NCBI GenBank assembly: GCA_947567425.1
Contig: CANOLV010000001.1
Coordinates: forward strand, 62,001 to 126,000
DNA length: 64,000 nt
Source: an uncultured Porphyromonadaceae bacterium
GTDB lineage: Bacteria; Bacteroidota; Bacteroidia; Bacteroidales; Muribaculaceae
Reading direction: 5' to 3'
The notes beneath the pieces are model-generated. The model saw only the letters and a program-made list of their open reading frames with translations, was not told the DNA's origin and ran no database searches. Shown piece after piece: positions 1,557-52,246 of the stretch (within the stretch, counting starts at the first letter, position 1; every line of letters starts with the position of its first letter). Both the position numbers and the translations under genes were made by a program.

Positions 1557-4500
1557 ATGCGAAGATTTAAACTTCAACTGTCGCTGAGCATTGCCGTCCT
1601 GGCAACAATGCTCGCCGGACTGGCAGGATATCGCATCCAGGCCAACGTGACCGCCGAATCGCCAACGGCCACATTAAATACCGAGTCACTAACCCCGTTG
1701 CCCGACGACTTTGTTCCCAAGAAGATGCTTCGCAAAGGATCCGCAGCCAAAGCCATGGAGGCTTCCCAGGTCAGCGGACATTATGCCGAATGGGACGAAA
1801 TAGCCACTTCCAACGGCTCCACAGGCTATCAGAGCATGACTGAGATAATCGTTGCCGACGACAACAGTGTTACCGTCAAGAACCTCTATAACCTCGGATT
1901 CAACGTCACCGGAACTTTCGACCCCGAAGCCGCCACCATTACCGTACCCTCCCAGTTTGCCTTCAACGAGTCACCCTACGGCGACTTCTGGTTCTGCTAC
2001 TTCAACGGCACCGGATTCTCCTCGCAGCTCCCGGTGGTCATGCAGATCAATCAGGACGGCTCAATCACCACCCCAGGGAGCGGATGGTGCGTCATCATTC
2101 CCGACAAGCAGAGTGCATTCTACGGAAGCGCACTCATGGCCTGCACGGGATCCAAATTCGACCGTGCCAACGCCTCCATGTCTGCTTCAGTAAGGCAGGC
2201 CGACAAGACGTTCGTCGATCAGGAGTATCCGCTTTATGTCTATAAGTCGGCCGACGACATCATTTCCGTGGCCAACATGACCACACAGGGCAAAGCAGTC
2301 AACATACGCCTGATGACCGGCAAGAACGTCGAAGTCGAGCCGCAGGTGATGAGCTACAGTGCCCTCGTCGGGGCATACTGCATATACCCGGCACAGAGCT
2401 CCGGAACCACATTCAAAGGCCTCAACCAGAACCTTACGGGTGTCCACGAAGGACAGCAGATCACATTCGGCCCGTTCGGCGTATTTCAGGCTACCGCGCT
2501 GACTAAGATGATGTTCGGAGCAAACAGCGGTACGATCACTCTGCCCGACGGATTATCAGTGGAGCACCCCACCGGCGATGCTCCCGTATTCGAAGGCGAG
2601 GGAACCCAGGCTTCCCCATACGTCATAGCCACTTCCGACGACCTCATCAAACTATCGACTGCCGTCGAACTCGGCAACAATTTCGCCGAAAAGATCTTCA
2701 AACTGACGGCCGACATCGACATGAAGGGAATATCGTTCCGTCCTATCGGAAATGCCAAGACCTCTTTCGACGGCACTTTCGACGGCGACGGCCACACTAT
2801 ATCTTACCTCGAGCTTCGCCGCGGCTCTGTCGAGAACACCGGACTGTTCGGTGTCACAGGCAACTCGGCGCTGCTTAAGAACCTCACATTGAACCTCTGC
2901 ACCATTGAAGTCTACGGCAAATACGCCGGTATCCTCGTCGGCAATTCCAAGGGACGCATCGAGAATTGCCACACCACTGGAGTCCTCTCAAGCTCTGCCG
3001 ACTATCTCGGCGGAATAGCCGGCAACTCCGGCGTAGCTGGAAGCACCGGCGAAATCTCCATCACCGGATGTTCGTTCATCGGCACCATGAAAGGCGTAGC
3101 CTACACCGGAGGTATAGCCGGATATGCATTCGGAAAGATTTCCGGTTGCCATGTCATCGCGGCCATAAACACCTCTGTCGGATCAGCGAGCATCAGCCAT
3201 GGCGTGGGCGGTATCGCCGGCGGATTCAACGGCACCACATCTACGCCCGGCGTTCTGGAAGAATGCTTCTTTGTCGGCTCAGCCACTGACAATTCAGGAT
3301 ACGCCAATCTCGGCGGCATCGTCGGACAGCTCTCAGGAAAGACTACCGTCGTTCGCCGATGCGCCAACATGGCTCTCCTTACATCCAACGTCACCGACAA
3401 GAGCATCGGACGTTGCGGCGGTATCGCCGGATCATGCTCCGACGCCACCATCGAGGACTCATACTCCTCCAACAATATTCTCGCCAAGAACGTCACCAAA
3501 AAAGTTGCAGGCTTGACCGGATGGCTAACAGGAACAAGCCAGACCACTCCCACCATCCGCAATTCATACTTCTCCGGACAGGTGATAGAGACTGGAGGGT
3601 TCGCATCCGATAAGTCGATTGCCTACGAGCCGTCGGCCACCGCCGTGATCGAGAATGTCTACTTCGACGCCCAGATGCAGTGCGCCGCACCGGTCGACTC
3701 CGCTCTCACCACCGAAGCCCTCACATCGGGCAATCCGCTCAAAGGATTCAGCACCGACGTATGGAACTTCACCGAAGGACGCTACCCGACGCTGAAGTAT
3801 CTGCCCGAACCTTATGCCGGCTATTCAAGCGCCGCCCTTCACCTCTCAGGCACCCAGTCGGCCAGCAATGTAAAGTCCGACTTCCCGCTGACAGTCGTTC
3901 CCGATGTCACATGGAAGGTCCTCGACGACGACTCTCAGTATTCCGACCAGAACAGTCTGATAGCCATCGAGAACAATACCGTCAAGATCAAGGATAAGTT
4001 CGGCATATCGATCATAGCCGCATGCATAACCATACCCAACGGTACATTCCCGCGCCTCTATACACTGAGCGTGTCGCCGGCCATATTCGACGGTAAGGGC
4101 ACAGCCGACGATCCATATCTGATCAAGACCGTCGACGATGTAAAAGCCCTCAACACTGCCATCACCGTAGCCGGACAGCAGTTCCACGGTGACTTCTTCA
4201 AACTCGCCAACGACATCGACTTCACTTCTGTCGACGACTTCTGGGGCATCGGCGACGACAGCAACCCGAGTCACTATTTCAACGCCACATTCGACGGCGA
4301 CGGACATGCCATCCACAATTGGTGTCCCAAGGGAATAGTCTATGACGCTTCCGGAGCGGTCGATCCCAAACTCTCTCGCCAGACGCTCGGGTTCTTCGGC
4401 AATGTCGGTCCTCTCGGTGTGGTCAAGAACTTGACAATGGCCGCCGACTGCAACATCGAGGGATACGTAGGTGTCGGTGGTGTCGCTTCCATCGTCAACG

Positions 4501-24459: not shown

Positions 24460-24531
24460 TAGCCCATAGGAGAATCGAACTCCTCTTTCAAGAATGAAAA
24501 TCTTGCGTCCTAACCGATAGACGAATGGGCC
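24460..24531 (-). tRNA. tRNA-Glu (UUC), second copy of the operon
   Basis: A 72-nt cloverleaf. The anticodon stem CAAGA/TCTTG encloses loop TTTTCAT, giving anticodon UUC. A T-arm GTTCGATTC is present and a G-U pair opens the acceptor stem. It is identical to the copy at 24867. Here CCA is encoded directly after the discriminator (24459-24457). Confidence 0.95.
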
Positions 24532-24866: not shown

Positions 24867-24938
24867 TAGCCCATAGGAGAATCGAACTCCTCTTTCAAGA
24901 ATGAAAATCTTGCGTCCTAACCGATAGACGAATGGGCC
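24867..24938 (-). tRNA. tRNA-Glu (UUC), first copy of the operon
   Basis: A 72-nt cloverleaf identical in sequence to the copy at 24460, anticodon UUC. No CCA is encoded after the discriminator (the next bases are CAA), unlike the other copy. Confidence 0.95.
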
Positions 24939-25051: not shown

Positions 25052-25741
25052 TTACCATAACGAATAGCGGATTCCATGGTCGAACGTGTCGATATTCTCA
25101 GCCCTTTTGACCCGCCTCACCATCCATATAGTCACCGGCAGGACTATGATCTCATATACCGTCTTCAGCACGGTCTGAGCCACAATCAGTTCCAGCACGA
25201 CATCCCAAGGGAGCATGCCTCCGAACGCCAAGGGGAAAAATATCACGGAATCAACTCCCTCGCCGAACAGAGTGCTGACGATGGCACGCACGGAGAACCG
25301 CCGGCCTCCTGACATCACCTTCATACGGCTCATCACAAACGCATTGACCATCGATCCGCAGACAAACGCCAGAAACGATGCGGCGAGTATGCGCGGAACT
25401 CCGCCATAAATGGCCTCCATGGCCTCCTGAAGCTGCCATTCGGGCGATCCCGGAAGGATAATGGCAAGACGCAGCATCAACGTCACAAGCAGATTGGCGG
25501 CGAATCCGAGCCATATCACAAGTCTGGCCCGCCGGAATCCGTAGACCTCGACTATGCAGTCATTGATTATATAACTTAAGGGAAACACGACCATTCCGGC
25601 CGTCACGGTGGCAAACCCCATGTCGACCGTCTTTATCTCTACGATATTAGCAATAATCAGGCACACGCAGAACATAACTGCGAGCACAAGGAACGGCACG
25701 GTGATACGTGCAGAATCGTCAATAACGCTGTTTTTATCCAT
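25052..25741 (-). CDS. yhhQ: Queuosine-precursor transporter (YhhQ/VUT family)
   Basis: A 229-residue inner-membrane protein of the YhhQ/DUF165 family, which imports the tRNA-modification precursors preQ0/preQ1 (or queuine in some lineages). About six hydrophobic helices are seen. Family features include IINDCIVEVYGFRRAR after helix 2 and the charged FGEGVDSVIFFPLAFGG segment. It is preceded by a preQ1-I riboswitch whose last pseudoknot pair ends three bases before the ATG, so expression should fall when preQ1 is abundant. This context strongly supports the substrate. The start ATG 25741 is fixed by the riboswitch. It is a single gene, with promoter at 25800. Confidence 0.93.
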   Translation of the reverse strand: MDKNSVIDDSARITVPFLVLAVMFCVCLIIANIVEIKTVDMGFATVTAGMVVFPLSYIINDCIVEVYGFRRARLVIWLGFAANLLVTLMLRLAIILPGSPEWQLQEAMEAIYGGVPRILAASFLAFVCGSMVNAFVMSRMKVMSGGRRFSVRAIVSTLFGEGVDSVIFFPLAFGGMLPWDVVLELIVAQTVLKTVYEIIVLPVTIWMVRRVKRAENIDTFDHGIRYSLW

Positions 25742-25743
25742 AA

Positions 25744-25773
25744 TCTTGTTTTTTACGAGGTAGCAAGCACTCG
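25744..25773 (-). promoter_or_regulatory. preQ1-I riboswitch
   Basis: On the minus strand: P1 5' arm CGAG (25773-25770), loop TGCTTGCTAC (25769-25760), P1 3' arm CTCG (25759-25756), A-rich strand TAAAAAA, then CAAG (25748-25745). Loop CTTG can pair with CAAG to form the H-type pseudoknot. The layout matches the known preQ1-I aptamer (loop UUCUAGCUAC, tail AUAAAAAACUAA), with the pseudoknot pairs changed on both sides. The tail ends three bases before the ATG, pointing to translational control. Confidence 0.9.
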
Positions 25774-25799
25774 GTGTGGTTATTTGTATGATTTCGGTG

Positions 25800-25807
25800 C
25801 AAAGTTA
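25800..25807 (-). promoter_or_regulatory. -7 element for the riboswitch-yhhQ transcript
   Basis: Minus strand TAACTTTG, about 27 bases upstream of the riboswitch P1 stem. Confidence 0.8.
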
Positions 25808-25896
25808 CGACTTTTTTCCGACTTTCGTGCATCTGCATAAAAAAGCTCCCGCGACCGGCTGAACCATAGTCGGCACATAGCGTTTTTATTAACAAA

Positions 25897-45593: not shown

Positions 45594-46067
45594 ATGTCAA
45601 GAATGCCGGAGGAGATGCCCGACATCACGTTGTTGGGCAACCAAGGAACAAAATATCCCACGGAATATGCACCGGAAGTGCTTGAGACCTTCATCAACAA
45701 GCATCCTGACAATGAATATCTCGTGACATTCACATGTCCGGAATTCACATCGCTTTGCCCAAAGACCGGACAACCGGACTTTGCCAAAATAATCATCAAC
45801 TATATCCCTCGGGAGAAAATGGTGGAGAGCAAAAGTCTGAAACTTTACCTGTTCAGCTTCCGCAATCATGGCGACTTCCACGAAGACTGCGTCAACATCA
45901 TCATGAAGGATCTCGTGAAGCTTATGGATCCAAAATATCTTGAAGTCATAGGGCTGTTCACGCCACGAGGGGGGATCAGCATCTATCCGTTTGCCAACTA
46001 CGGCGACCGTGAACATCAGGACCTGGTAAAGTCGAGGCTTCTGGCATCGTTCAGGAATAACTTCTAA
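45594..46067 (+). CDS. queF: NADPH-dependent preQ0 reductase (QueF)
   Basis: Reduces preQ0 (7-cyano-7-deazaguanine) to preQ1 in queuosine synthesis. The 157-residue product is the short, type I form. It shows the family motif in [13 protein letters not shown] with Cys55 and Asp62, the [22 protein letters not shown] region with Glu97, and the ending [13 protein letters not shown]. Length and residue numbers match Bacillus QueF. It starts 11 bases after the C69 peptidase gene with no promoter between them, and no riboswitch is seen in that leader. queA lies 5 kb downstream; queC, queD and queE are not in the window. Confidence 0.95.
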
Positions 46068-49847: not shown

Positions 49848-51026
49848 ATGAGAAATATAATCCTCTACGACGACCCGGATCTTCGGGAGAACCTTCTGCC
49901 GATAACGTTCACCCGTCCGATGGCCGACATAAGGTTCGGCATAATGACCATACGCCAGAAATGGGAACTCGCATTCCCCGGCCAATACTCCTACAGCACG
50001 GCCGACTACCTTACCGTCAAATTTCCGGTCAAAGAGGTCAACACACTCGACGACTACTACATAGCTGGAAATGTCTGTCCGAACGACGAGCTGGTACGCT
50101 GTCTTGAGACTCTGCCTCAGAACACCGCCATAAAGTGCGGCGACCGAATATTGGCCCGCCATGGAAAGTCGTATGACACATCGGTGGAAATCACCGAGAT
50201 GCCGATGATGCTCAATTCGCTGACCGACATATTCATGCATAATGAGGAAGCTCTCGTCATGGACTTCAAGGCCATGACACGCGGACGCTATTCGCAACCG
50301 CTAAGCCCGACATGTACCGTGATCGGCGACCCGCTCTTCCCCGACGGCACTCCCAAGATATTCCTCGAACCGGGAGCCACCGTGGAAGGTGCCATCCTCA
50401 ACGTGTCGAAAGGCCCGGTCTATGTGGGCAATGATGCCGAGATCATGGAAGGGTCATGCGTCAGGGGGCCGTTGGCGCTCTGCGAACATGCATACGTCAA
50501 CATGGGCACTAAAATTTATGGAGCCACCACCATAGGCCCATACTGCAAGGTCGGCGGCGAACTCAACAATGTCGTTATGATAGGCTACAGCAATAAGGCC
50601 CACGACGGATTTTTAGGCAACGCGGTGATCGGCGAATGGTGCAACCTCGGAGCCAACTGCGTGGCTTCAAACCTCAAGAACGACTACTCCGAAATCAAGC
50701 TCTGGAACTATCCTGCCCACCGCTTCCTCCGTACCGGACTTCAGTTCTGCGGACTGATCATGGGCGACCATACAAAGGCCGGAATAAACACCATGTTCAA
50801 CACGGCCACAGTGGTCGGTGTCGGATGCAACATCTACGGCTCCGGATTTCCCCGCAACTTCGTGGCCTCGTTCAGCGAGGGCGGCGCTTCTGGATTCGAC
50901 GACGTGTCGCTCAACAAGTTCTTCGACATAGCCCGCAGGGTCATGGCCCGCAGGCACGTCGAGCTGACGGAAGCCGACATGGACATATTCCGCTCAATAT
51001 ATGAGATAGCCGAGACATATAAATGA
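49848..51026 (+). CDS. GlmU-like sugar nucleotidyltransferase/acyltransferase
   Basis: A 392-residue cytoplasmic protein matching the Bacteroidetes alternative GlmU group (UDP-GlcNAc pyrophosphorylase-like N-terminus, left-handed beta-helix C-terminus). The opening MRNIILYDDPDLRENLLPIT and the F-T-R-P-M-A-D-I-R segment are typical. Hexapeptide-repeat character begins near residue 165 (EPGATVEGAILN, VYVGNDAEIMEGS, GPYCKVGGELNN) and includes GVGCNIYGSGF. It probably makes or modifies a nucleotide-activated amino sugar for the cell envelope. queA begins in its ATGA stop overlap. Confidence 0.85.
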   Translation: MRNIILYDDPDLRENLLPITFTRPMADIRFGIMTIRQKWELAFPGQYSYSTADYLTVKFPVKEVNTLDDYYIAGNVCPNDELVRCLETLPQNTAIKCGDRILARHGKSYDTSVEITEMPMMLNSLTDIFMHNEEALVMDFKAMTRGRYSQPLSPTCTVIGDPLFPDGTPKIFLEPGATVEGAILNVSKGPVYVGNDAEIMEGSCVRGPLALCEHAYVNMGTKIYGATTIGPYCKVGGELNNVVMIGYSNKAHDGFLGNAVIGEWCNLGANCVASNLKNDYSEIKLWNYPAHRFLRTGLQFCGLIMGDHTKAGINTMFNTATVVGVGCNIYGSGFPRNFVASFSEGGASGFDDVSLNKFFDIARRVMARRHVELTEADMDIFRSIYEIAETYK

Positions 51027-52246
51027 TGAATCCCAACGACGTATTCAACATCCGGATCGAGGATTTCAACTATCCTCTGCCCGACGAGCGGATAGCAAAA
51101 CATCCCCTCGCCGAACGCGACAGCTGCAAGCTCCTGCTGAGGCGCCACGGAGGCCACATCTCGGAACATGTGTTCAAGGAGGTGGCCGGACTGCTTCCCG
51201 ACGACTCGATGCTCGTCTATAACGACACCCGCGTGATCAATGCCCGCCTGCGCTTTCAAAAGGCGGAAGGAGGATCCACTATAGAGATATTCTGTCTGGA
51301 GCCGGTTCTGCCGTCGGACTACGCGCTCAACCTGTCGTCGGCCTCGTGCTGCGAATGGCTCTGCTTCGTCGGAAATTCAAAACGCTGGAAATCGGGCAAT
51401 CTGACCCGTCAGGTAAGCATCGACGGCAACGAAGTCCGGGTAAGCGCCGAACGGGTGCGCCGCGACGGCAACGCCTCAGTCATCCGGTTCAGCTGGGACT
51501 CGACTGACGCCACATTCTCCGACATACTTCTGGCCATGGGGGAAATACCGATACCTCCCTACCTCAACCGTGCCACCGAACAGTCGGACACCACCGACTA
51601 TCAGACAGTCTACAGCCACTATGACGGCTCAGTGGCAGCGCCCACTGCCGGACTGCACTTCACCGACAACCTGCTGTCGGAAATCGCGGCACGTGGCATA
51701 CCTTCGCGACAAGTCACACTGCATGTCGGCGCCGGAACGTTCCAGCCCGTAAAGAGCGAGAGCATCGGCGAACATGACATGCACAGTGAATTCATAGCCG
51801 TGAGCAGAGATTTCTTAGCCGAACTCGCCGCTACCGACCGCAGAGTGATCGCCGTAGGCACCACCTCGGTACGCACACTCGAAAGCGTTTACCATATCGG
51901 ATGCCTCATCAGTCAAGGCAAATGGACCGGACAGGTGCCGCAATGGTACCCCTATTCGTCAGATCACCCAGGTCTAAGCACTGAAGAAGCCTTGCGCCAC
52001 GTGGTCAGCTATCTCGACCGTGAAGGCTCGGACACGCTCATAGCATCTACCCGCATAATCATAGCCCCCGGCTATACCTTCCGCATAGTGAAGGGAATGA
52101 TCACCAACTTCCATCAGCCACAGTCCACACTGCTACTGCTGGTTTCGGCATTCGTAGATGGAGAATGGAGAGAGATGTACGACTTCGCGCTGTCCAACGA
52201 TTTCCGCTTCCTGAGCTACGGAGACGGATCGCTGATTTTTCCATGA
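51023..52246 (+). CDS. queA: tRNA preQ1(34) S-adenosylmethionine ribosyltransferase-isomerase
   Basis: Transfers the ribosyl part of S-adenosylmethionine to preQ1 in tRNA to form epoxyqueuosine, a late step of queuosine synthesis. The 407-residue product has the family segments FNYPLPDERIAKHPL, MLVYNDTRVINARL, GEIPIPPYLNR, SVAAPTAGLHFTDNLL and GTTSVRTLESVYHI. It ends in FRFLSYGDGSLIF. Length is longer than many QueA (about 345), mainly through an internal segment around residues 95-150. The start ATG overlaps the glmU-like stop as ATGA. With queF (45594) and the yhhQ transporter (25052) it forms a scattered queuosine pathway. Confidence 0.95.
   Translation: MMNPNDVFNIRIEDFNYPLPDERIAKHPLAERDSCKLLLRRHGGHISEHVFKEVAGLLPDDSMLVYNDTRVINARLRFQKAEGGSTIEIFCLEPVLPSDYALNLSSASCCEWLCFVGNSKRWKSGNLTRQVSIDGNEVRVSAERVRRDGNASVIRFSWDSTDATFSDILLAMGEIPIPPYLNRATEQSDTTDYQTVYSHYDGSVAAPTAGLHFTDNLLSEIAARGIPSRQVTLHVGAGTFQPVKSESIGEHDMHSEFIAVSRDFLAELAATDRRVIAVGTTSVRTLESVYHIGCLISQGKWTGQVPQWYPYSSDHPGLSTEEALRHVVSYLDREGSDTLIASTRIIIAPGYTFRIVKGMITNFHQPQSTLLLLVSAFVDGEWREMYDFALSNDFRFLSYGDGSLIFP

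Follow-up and report, generated by a model that had tools for sequence, protein, structure and literature searches.

According to the accessible text of a 2024 review, types I and II of the preQ1-I riboswitches are found in several phyla, Bacteroidota being one of them (PMC11625349), so the class as such is not new to this phylum; an Rfam-based survey, in the part of it available, describes preQ1 riboswitches as mostly limited to Firmicutes (PMC3766115). The bases by which preQ1-I aptamers contact their ligand include the G-C pair on top of P1, the U after the 5' strand, the specificity C before the 3' strand and the L3 adenine next to P2 (PMC10622847, available text), while type II members are told by the dinucleotide that immediately precedes the P1 3' strand, AC in place of UC (PMC11625349). 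The same review, as far as its available text goes, predicts translational riboswitches in organisms that do not use the Shine-Dalgarno (SD) sequence, and points out that a missing SD weakens the searches for them (PMC11625349). No description of the motif presented here was found in the literature on preQ1 and queuosine (Q) riboswitches in Bacteroidota, the coverage of which is short on subscription papers, nor in the accessible parts of PMC2258182, PMC6593275, PMC11130926, PMC8752633, PMC9495176, PMC10570037, PMC10043782 and PMC11651100, and a paper on the B. thetaiotaomicron transcriptome mentions, in its available text, TPP riboswitches and has no word beginning with “preQ” (PMC7366714). 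The part that looks to be new is a Bacteroidales sequence subgroup together with its expression platform. The element described below is very probably a preQ1-I-class riboswitch of a type II-like Bacteroidales subgroup which shuts off the translation of YhhQ when preQ1 is plentiful, where we infer both the ligand and the “OFF” logic at the level of translation.

In the window (the whole 64,000-nt stretch of DNA that was analyzed), the minus strand carries a P1 of 4 bp, a loop with the sequence UGCUUGCUAC, a linker rich in A, and a tail (CAAG) able to pair with the loop, the order from promoter to start being TAACTTTG, 24 nt, AC CGAG TGCTTGCTAC CTCG TAAAAAA CAAG ATT ATG (Table 1). All of the parts that the preliminary description had listed (P1, loop, A-rich strand, CAAG and promoter) do lie where it had put them, including the end of the putative pseudoknot three bases before the yhhQ ATG. 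The open reading frame (ORF) that follows scores 118.9 bits against TIGR00697 (cut-off 50.95) and 170.1 bits against Pfam Vut_1 (cut-off 27.2), and the L3 adenines occupy positions -8 to -13 relative to its start. A 28-base pattern of the motif, allowing for up to 3 mismatches, has a single occurrence in the window and none in 100 window shuffles. As for the promoter, the Bacteroidetes -7 consensus TAnnTTTG is quoted in the available text of PMC7366714, and 62 of the 81 leaders, which are distinct but related, have TANNTTTG no more than 100 nt upstream of the motif (mean of 4.1 under single-base shuffling), which indicates that the motif usually lies within a short 5' leader. Nested folding of the leader is ordinary (z of -1.28, with 21 of 200 shuffles folding as well) and favours other weak hairpins of -3.2 to -5.9 kcal/mol, a result that says little since the structure in question is a pseudoknot. 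Further along the window, two tRNA genes of the same sequence (24460-24531 and 24867-24938, both on the minus strand; anticodon UUC, Glu, as judged by eye) flank rpsT.

Table 1. Features of the yhhQ leader and gene in window coordinates (A4, alignment of 60 leaders; R2, covariance model; both are described in the text).
Feature	Position	Strand	Basis or remark
TAACTTTG, match to the Bacteroidetes -7 promoter element TAnnTTTG	25800-25807	-	Sequence and published consensus
Whole preQ1-I-like motif (31 bases)	25745-25775	-	As matched by model R2
P1 5' strand CGAG	25770-25773	-	Pairs with 25756-25759
U directly 3' of the P1 5' strand; putative counterpart of the preQ1-contacting U in known aptamers	25769	-	U in 60/60 A4 rows
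Loop TGCTTGCTAC	25760-25769	-	Sequence
P2 5' strand CUUG (CTTG), putative pairing	25764-25767	-	UUG in 60/60 A4 rows, C in 58/60
C before the P1 3' strand, with A preceding; counterpart of the specificity cytosine	25760	-	A and C in 60/60 A4 rows
P1 3' strand CUCG	25756-25759	-	R2 match, P1 covariation
L3 linker, U and six A; proposed second role as translation-enhancer A-tract	25749-25755	-	
P2 3' strand CAAG, putative pairing; ends 3 nt before the start codon	25745-25748	-	Complementary to CTTG 25764-25767
Spacer ATT	25742-25744	-	ATG ends at 25741
yhhQ, queuosine precursor transporter, 229 aa	25052-25741	-	TIGR00697, Pfam Vut_1

A search with the Rfam PreQ1 model (RF00522, gathering score of 39 bits) had been proposed as a check, and it gave no significant match: at gathering thresholds, cmscan reported three tRNAs and an SRP RNA alone in the window, nothing matched RF00522 at E≤10 in the 201 bases of 25680-25880, and its one match in the own genome at E≤10 (14.8 bits) is located away from the yhhQ leader. 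The preliminary description was prepared to abandon its reading if both a significant covariance-model match and covariation of either helix were missing; the former is indeed missing, whereas the latter is seen in CGAG/CTCG. Seven motif-bearing loci compared with all of Rfam at E≤10 likewise gave no PreQ1 match, in a scan that returned one at 50.7 bits for a further locus, L142, and among 395 Bacteroidia genomes RF00522 rose above its cut-off in a single one (G395), at that very locus, where the aptamer of the RF00522 type precedes a Vut_1 family gene. Another one, below the cut-off at 27.1 bits, lies about 110 nt before queC in G310 (L144). As model R2, introduced below, matches neither L142 nor L144, and RF00522 misses the motif, these look like separate sequence subgroups.

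The Rfam model thus failing as proof, two models of our own were built. The first one, R1, was built from 31 leaders, the window site included, and, over the 395 Bacteroidia genomes, gave 9 matches with E<1e-4 in six genomes, all of the order of the window and all nine before yhhQ, queC or queD, one of them being the window's own training sequence. Three of the six genomes had two strong matches each, the second one standing before queC-queF in two genomes and before queD and then a radical SAM gene in one. That last gene is presumably queE. In these six genomes RF00522 had no match at E≤0.1. Relaxing R1 to E≤0.5 produced 46 rows, 37 of them weaker than E<1e-4, and none of the six weaker ones inspected by their ORFs preceded a Q gene.

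To avoid circularity, the covariance model R2 was trained on 14 leaders of families other than that of the window, as assigned by family codes for 8 leaders (f26 and f27 versus f1 for the window) and by record titles for 6, leaving out L046, L047 and L051 as possible members of the window's family. With the filters off, R2 finds the site in the window at 48.7 bits (E of 1.6e-7; the next match at 11.3 bits), and the site ranks first in the own genome as well (E of 7.0e-6, followed by a match of 21.9 bits with an E of 0.88). Across 295 Bacteroidales genomes, where 24 candidates per genome were scored under strict filters and some sites were possibly missed, 45 matches at E≤0.01 were obtained, one each in 33 genomes and two each in 6 (39 genomes in all), so that a genome carrying the motif has one or two sites of it. 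Every one of these 45 matches, of which 5 (in G133, G167 and G398) are R2 training sequences, precedes a queuosine-precursor gene, namely yhhQ in 37 cases and queC in 8, often followed by queC or queF, the downstream gene being the one matched first over the 2,200 nt that follow the site (Pfam scores of the reference proteins: 257.7 bits for QueC, 115.8 bits for QueF and 111.8 bits for the PTPS family, i.e., QueD). As the leaders are related, the leader counts given throughout represent non-independent events.

The motif is not universal, given that R2 found no match in 256 of the 295 Bacteroidales genomes and that 41 of the 66 yhhQ relatives fetched by protein do without it, while 25 have it. 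In several of the motif-less relatives (e.g., L020, L014 and L023), yhhQ seems, by eye, to sit close behind another ORF, which suggests riboswitch loss or gain within the order, and in others a promoter appears to lie close upstream of the gene. Two strict motif patterns had 0 matches in viral contigs. There is also an odd yhhQ leader (L062, around 2940-3000) whose stem is GGTGA/TCACC and whose tail is A7-CAAG; it has no AC before the 3' strand, is matched weakly by R2 (13 bits) and is perhaps a decayed or divergent copy of the motif.

The two helices differ in the kind of evidence that speaks for them. Alignment A4 consists of 60 leaders, 58 of them distinct, with two rows (L085 and L095) lacking the tail through wrong slicing, and 99.1% of all its pair cells are standard pairs. 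One of the P1 pairs is U-A in 35 rows and A-U in 23, and another is C-G in 41, A-U in 13 and U-G in 2, L135 having a T-T mismatch there. Changes on both sides affect 36 cells, compared with 12.3 in shuffles, and sliding the partner strand by up to 3 columns leaves at most 10 such changes; two of the five covariation measures (pairs with a double change and further pair types) stay at the level of the shuffles because just two pairs vary. P1, as read from the aligned letters, thus has comparative support through covariation. In P2, 98.7% of the cells are paired, three of the pairs are the same throughout and the fourth deviates by loss alone, the outer pair being C-G in 54 of 57 rows, with genuine mismatches in L192 and L194 and a slicing artefact in L095. 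P2 is therefore a putative helix that draws on invariance and on analogy with known aptamers, there being no compensatory change in it. The compensatory changes that the preliminary description had asked for in related leaders were, in this set, encountered in CGAG/CTCG and not in CTTG/CAAG. Its remark that the pseudoknot bases have changed on both sides relative to the Bacillus aptamer is in keeping with the Bacillus sequence. L192 and L194 (both yhhQ leaders of family f104) have a GUUG loop and a CAAG or CAAA tail, which leaves three P2 pairs, and are natural variants bearing on how much of P2 is needed.

The positions that contact preQ1 in the known aptamers are kept in the motif: the G-C pair atop P1, the U after P1 and the A and C before the 3' strand are present in 60 of 60 A4 rows, and the L3 adenine before CAAG in all 58 rows that have a letter there. 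The conserved U is followed by G in 49 rows, A in 10 and T in 1, the sole UU occurring in L095. Together with the covariation of P1 and the association with yhhQ, queC and queD, these conserved bases (contacts as per the available text of PMC10622847) support the assignment to preQ1-I, and by the AC rule the motif is, judged by its letters, type II-like.

As to how such an element might act, an ATG lies 1-6 nt after the tail in 77 of the 81 leaders distinct in letters (at 4 nt in 46 of those 77), too close for a terminator to fit in ahead of the gene, which makes control at translation initiation most likely. Without ligand, the A-rich linker and the tail would be single-stranded and would constitute an SD-independent initiation region, and with preQ1 bound, the linker would pack on P1 and CAAG would pair with the loop CUUG, so that a compact pseudoknot 3 nt before the AUG might block the access of the 30S subunit. 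The proposal that ligand binding “hides the ribosome entry site” would have to be narrowed accordingly in one respect: the hiding of an SD is unlikely, as Bacteroidia ribosomes are reported not to recognise it (PMC9976891, available text) and a weak SD-like 4-mer was seen in the last 20 nt of merely 3 of 77 leaders. Window ORFs of at least 200 aa with an ATG show such a 4-mer in 3 of 39 cases, compared with 4.2 in shuffled sequence, on start calls that are rough.

What might take the place of the SD is a matter for more cautious wording. In Flavobacterium johnsoniae, initiation is tuned by adenines at -3, -6, -12 and -13 (PMC6847099, available text). When the spacing between the tail and the start was varied from 0 to 12 nt, 4 nt let the aptamer letters provide A-6, A-12 and A-13 jointly in all 77 leaders, and the same held for 48 of the 77 with 3 nt, for a single one with 5 nt and for no leader at any other spacing; the prevailing 4-nt spacing is, in other words, the one at which all three adenines are supplied by the aptamer. 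In the leaders as they are, all three are present in 55 of 77 and A-3 in 42 of 77. The A-tract itself is uninformative here, as the aptamer needs it anyway, and only the spacing is informative; the argument is weakened further by A-3 being found in just 42 leaders and by the enhancer positions stemming from another order. An SD-free design, in which the L3 adenines would double as the upstream-A enhancer of Bacteroidia, and preQ1 binding, by docking them into P1, would both remove the enhancer and set a pseudoknot right beside the AUG, is accordingly offered as a tentative idea, which we hold to be more doubtful than not.

Could a preQ1 aptamer of this kind act instead on transcription, by way of termination or of pausing stabilised by the pseudoknot, or on the stability of the mRNA? 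The Bsu preQ1-I riboswitch controls both termination and pausing (PMC11625349, available text), and four queC leaders (L183, L184, L187 and L191) have their aptamer 73-170 nt before the queC match, not at 1-6 nt; the A-tract of L184 can pair with a downstream U-run, making another expression platform possible there. No terminators were evident by eye in these four leaders, and in three of the four genomes concerned a close-spaced copy is also carried before yhhQ. The close spacing seen in nearly all of the 81 leaders speaks against termination, though pausing or decay may still play a part, and a transcriptional or stability-based mode of action is, all in all, unlikely.

Homologues of QueC, QueF, Tgt and QueA over the cut-off are encoded in the own genome, which is 92% complete, so this bacterium probably makes preQ1 and would repress the importer whenever its preQ1 suffices. 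The queF gene (window 45594-46067, plus strand) has no motif, and neither has a gene for a QueA-like paralogue of 407 aa (51023-52246, plus strand; 326.6 bits to Queuosine_synth); a second QueA match, of 432 bits, lies elsewhere in the genome, and R2 gave no match in the queC, queF and QueA-like loci of this genome. It is conceivable that preQ0, queuine or another 7-deazapurine is sensed in place of preQ1: E. coli YhhQ salvages both preQ0 and preQ1, the preference of the type II Tte aptamer for preQ1 is just 17-fold relative to preQ0 (both from the available text of PMC10622847), and the base after the conserved U, mostly G here and C in the pocket ceiling of Tte, implies that the ceiling may differ. 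Set against this are the preQ1 contact positions of three subtypes, all of them conserved in the motif, and the many sites that lead yhhQ-queF or yhhQ-queC-queF runs. The product of the queC-queF pathway is preQ1. A ligand other than preQ1 is, on balance, improbable, slightly more so than a mode of action outside of translation.

Being almost invariant and situated near the AUG of genes with related functions, the element could, in principle, equally be the binding site of an RNA-binding repressor or some other protein coordinating the Q genes, with no small-molecule ligand involved, which is hard to reconcile with the invariant bases being precisely the preQ1 contacts of known aptamers and with the P1 pairing being kept while its sequence changes, and we regard it as very improbable. 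Shared ancestry or chance without function, for which the flanking sequence common to close relatives might be adduced, can practically be dismissed, as the element recurs before unrelated yhhQ, queC and queD genes while the flanks differ, 0 of 100 shuffled windows hold it and 45 of 45 R2 matches fall at Q-precursor genes.

A preQ1-I-class riboswitch acting on translation would make this motif group a compact Bacteroidales candidate for the SD-less translational riboswitch that has been predicted, and one which the current Rfam model misses. Confirmation would tell us how an aptamer class that is among the smallest known operates on ribosomes blind to the SD, and would render the regulation of Q precursors annotatable in an order common in the gut.

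Compared with the described systems, the motif is closest in its traits to type II (Thermoanaerobacter tengcongensis, Bacillus subtilis), with which it shares the H-type pseudoknot layout, the G-C pair atop P1 and the U after it, the AC before the P1 3' strand, an A-rich L3 and an inner P2 pair made by a loop G and a tail C (PMC11625349, PMC10622847, available texts). It departs from type II in that CUUG/CAAG allows for four Watson-Crick P2 pairs, whereas 2 of 4 are canonical in Tte (PMC11625349), and in having G, A or T after the conserved U, where Tte has C7 (PMC10622847). Its tail, moreover, is devoid of an SD, and RF00522 fails to detect it. In many relatives the loop contains GUAAC, as it does in Tte. 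Type III, as known from E. coli yhhQ, resembles the motif in standing before yhhQ and in having AC at the specificity base (PMC11625349, PMC10622847, available texts), and differs from it in a pyrimidine-rich stem-loop, UU after P1 and a buried AAGG SD, whereas the motif has UG, UA or UT after P1 and a CAAG or, in L194, CAAA tail; neither the UU (L095 apart) nor the AAGG tail was found in the A4 rows. Type I forms the same small pseudoknot, and control by pseudoknot formation more than by SD burial has been proposed for it as well; it differs in that it binds two ligands and has UU after P1 and UC (AC in the motif) before the P1 3' strand (PMC11625349, available text). The TPP riboswitches of Bacteroides, finally, have an unrelated aptamer and ligand. 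By the title of a preprint by Costliow, Degnan and Vanderpool, they reportedly act on transcription or translation, which means that there is some precedent for translational riboswitches in hosts that do without the SD.
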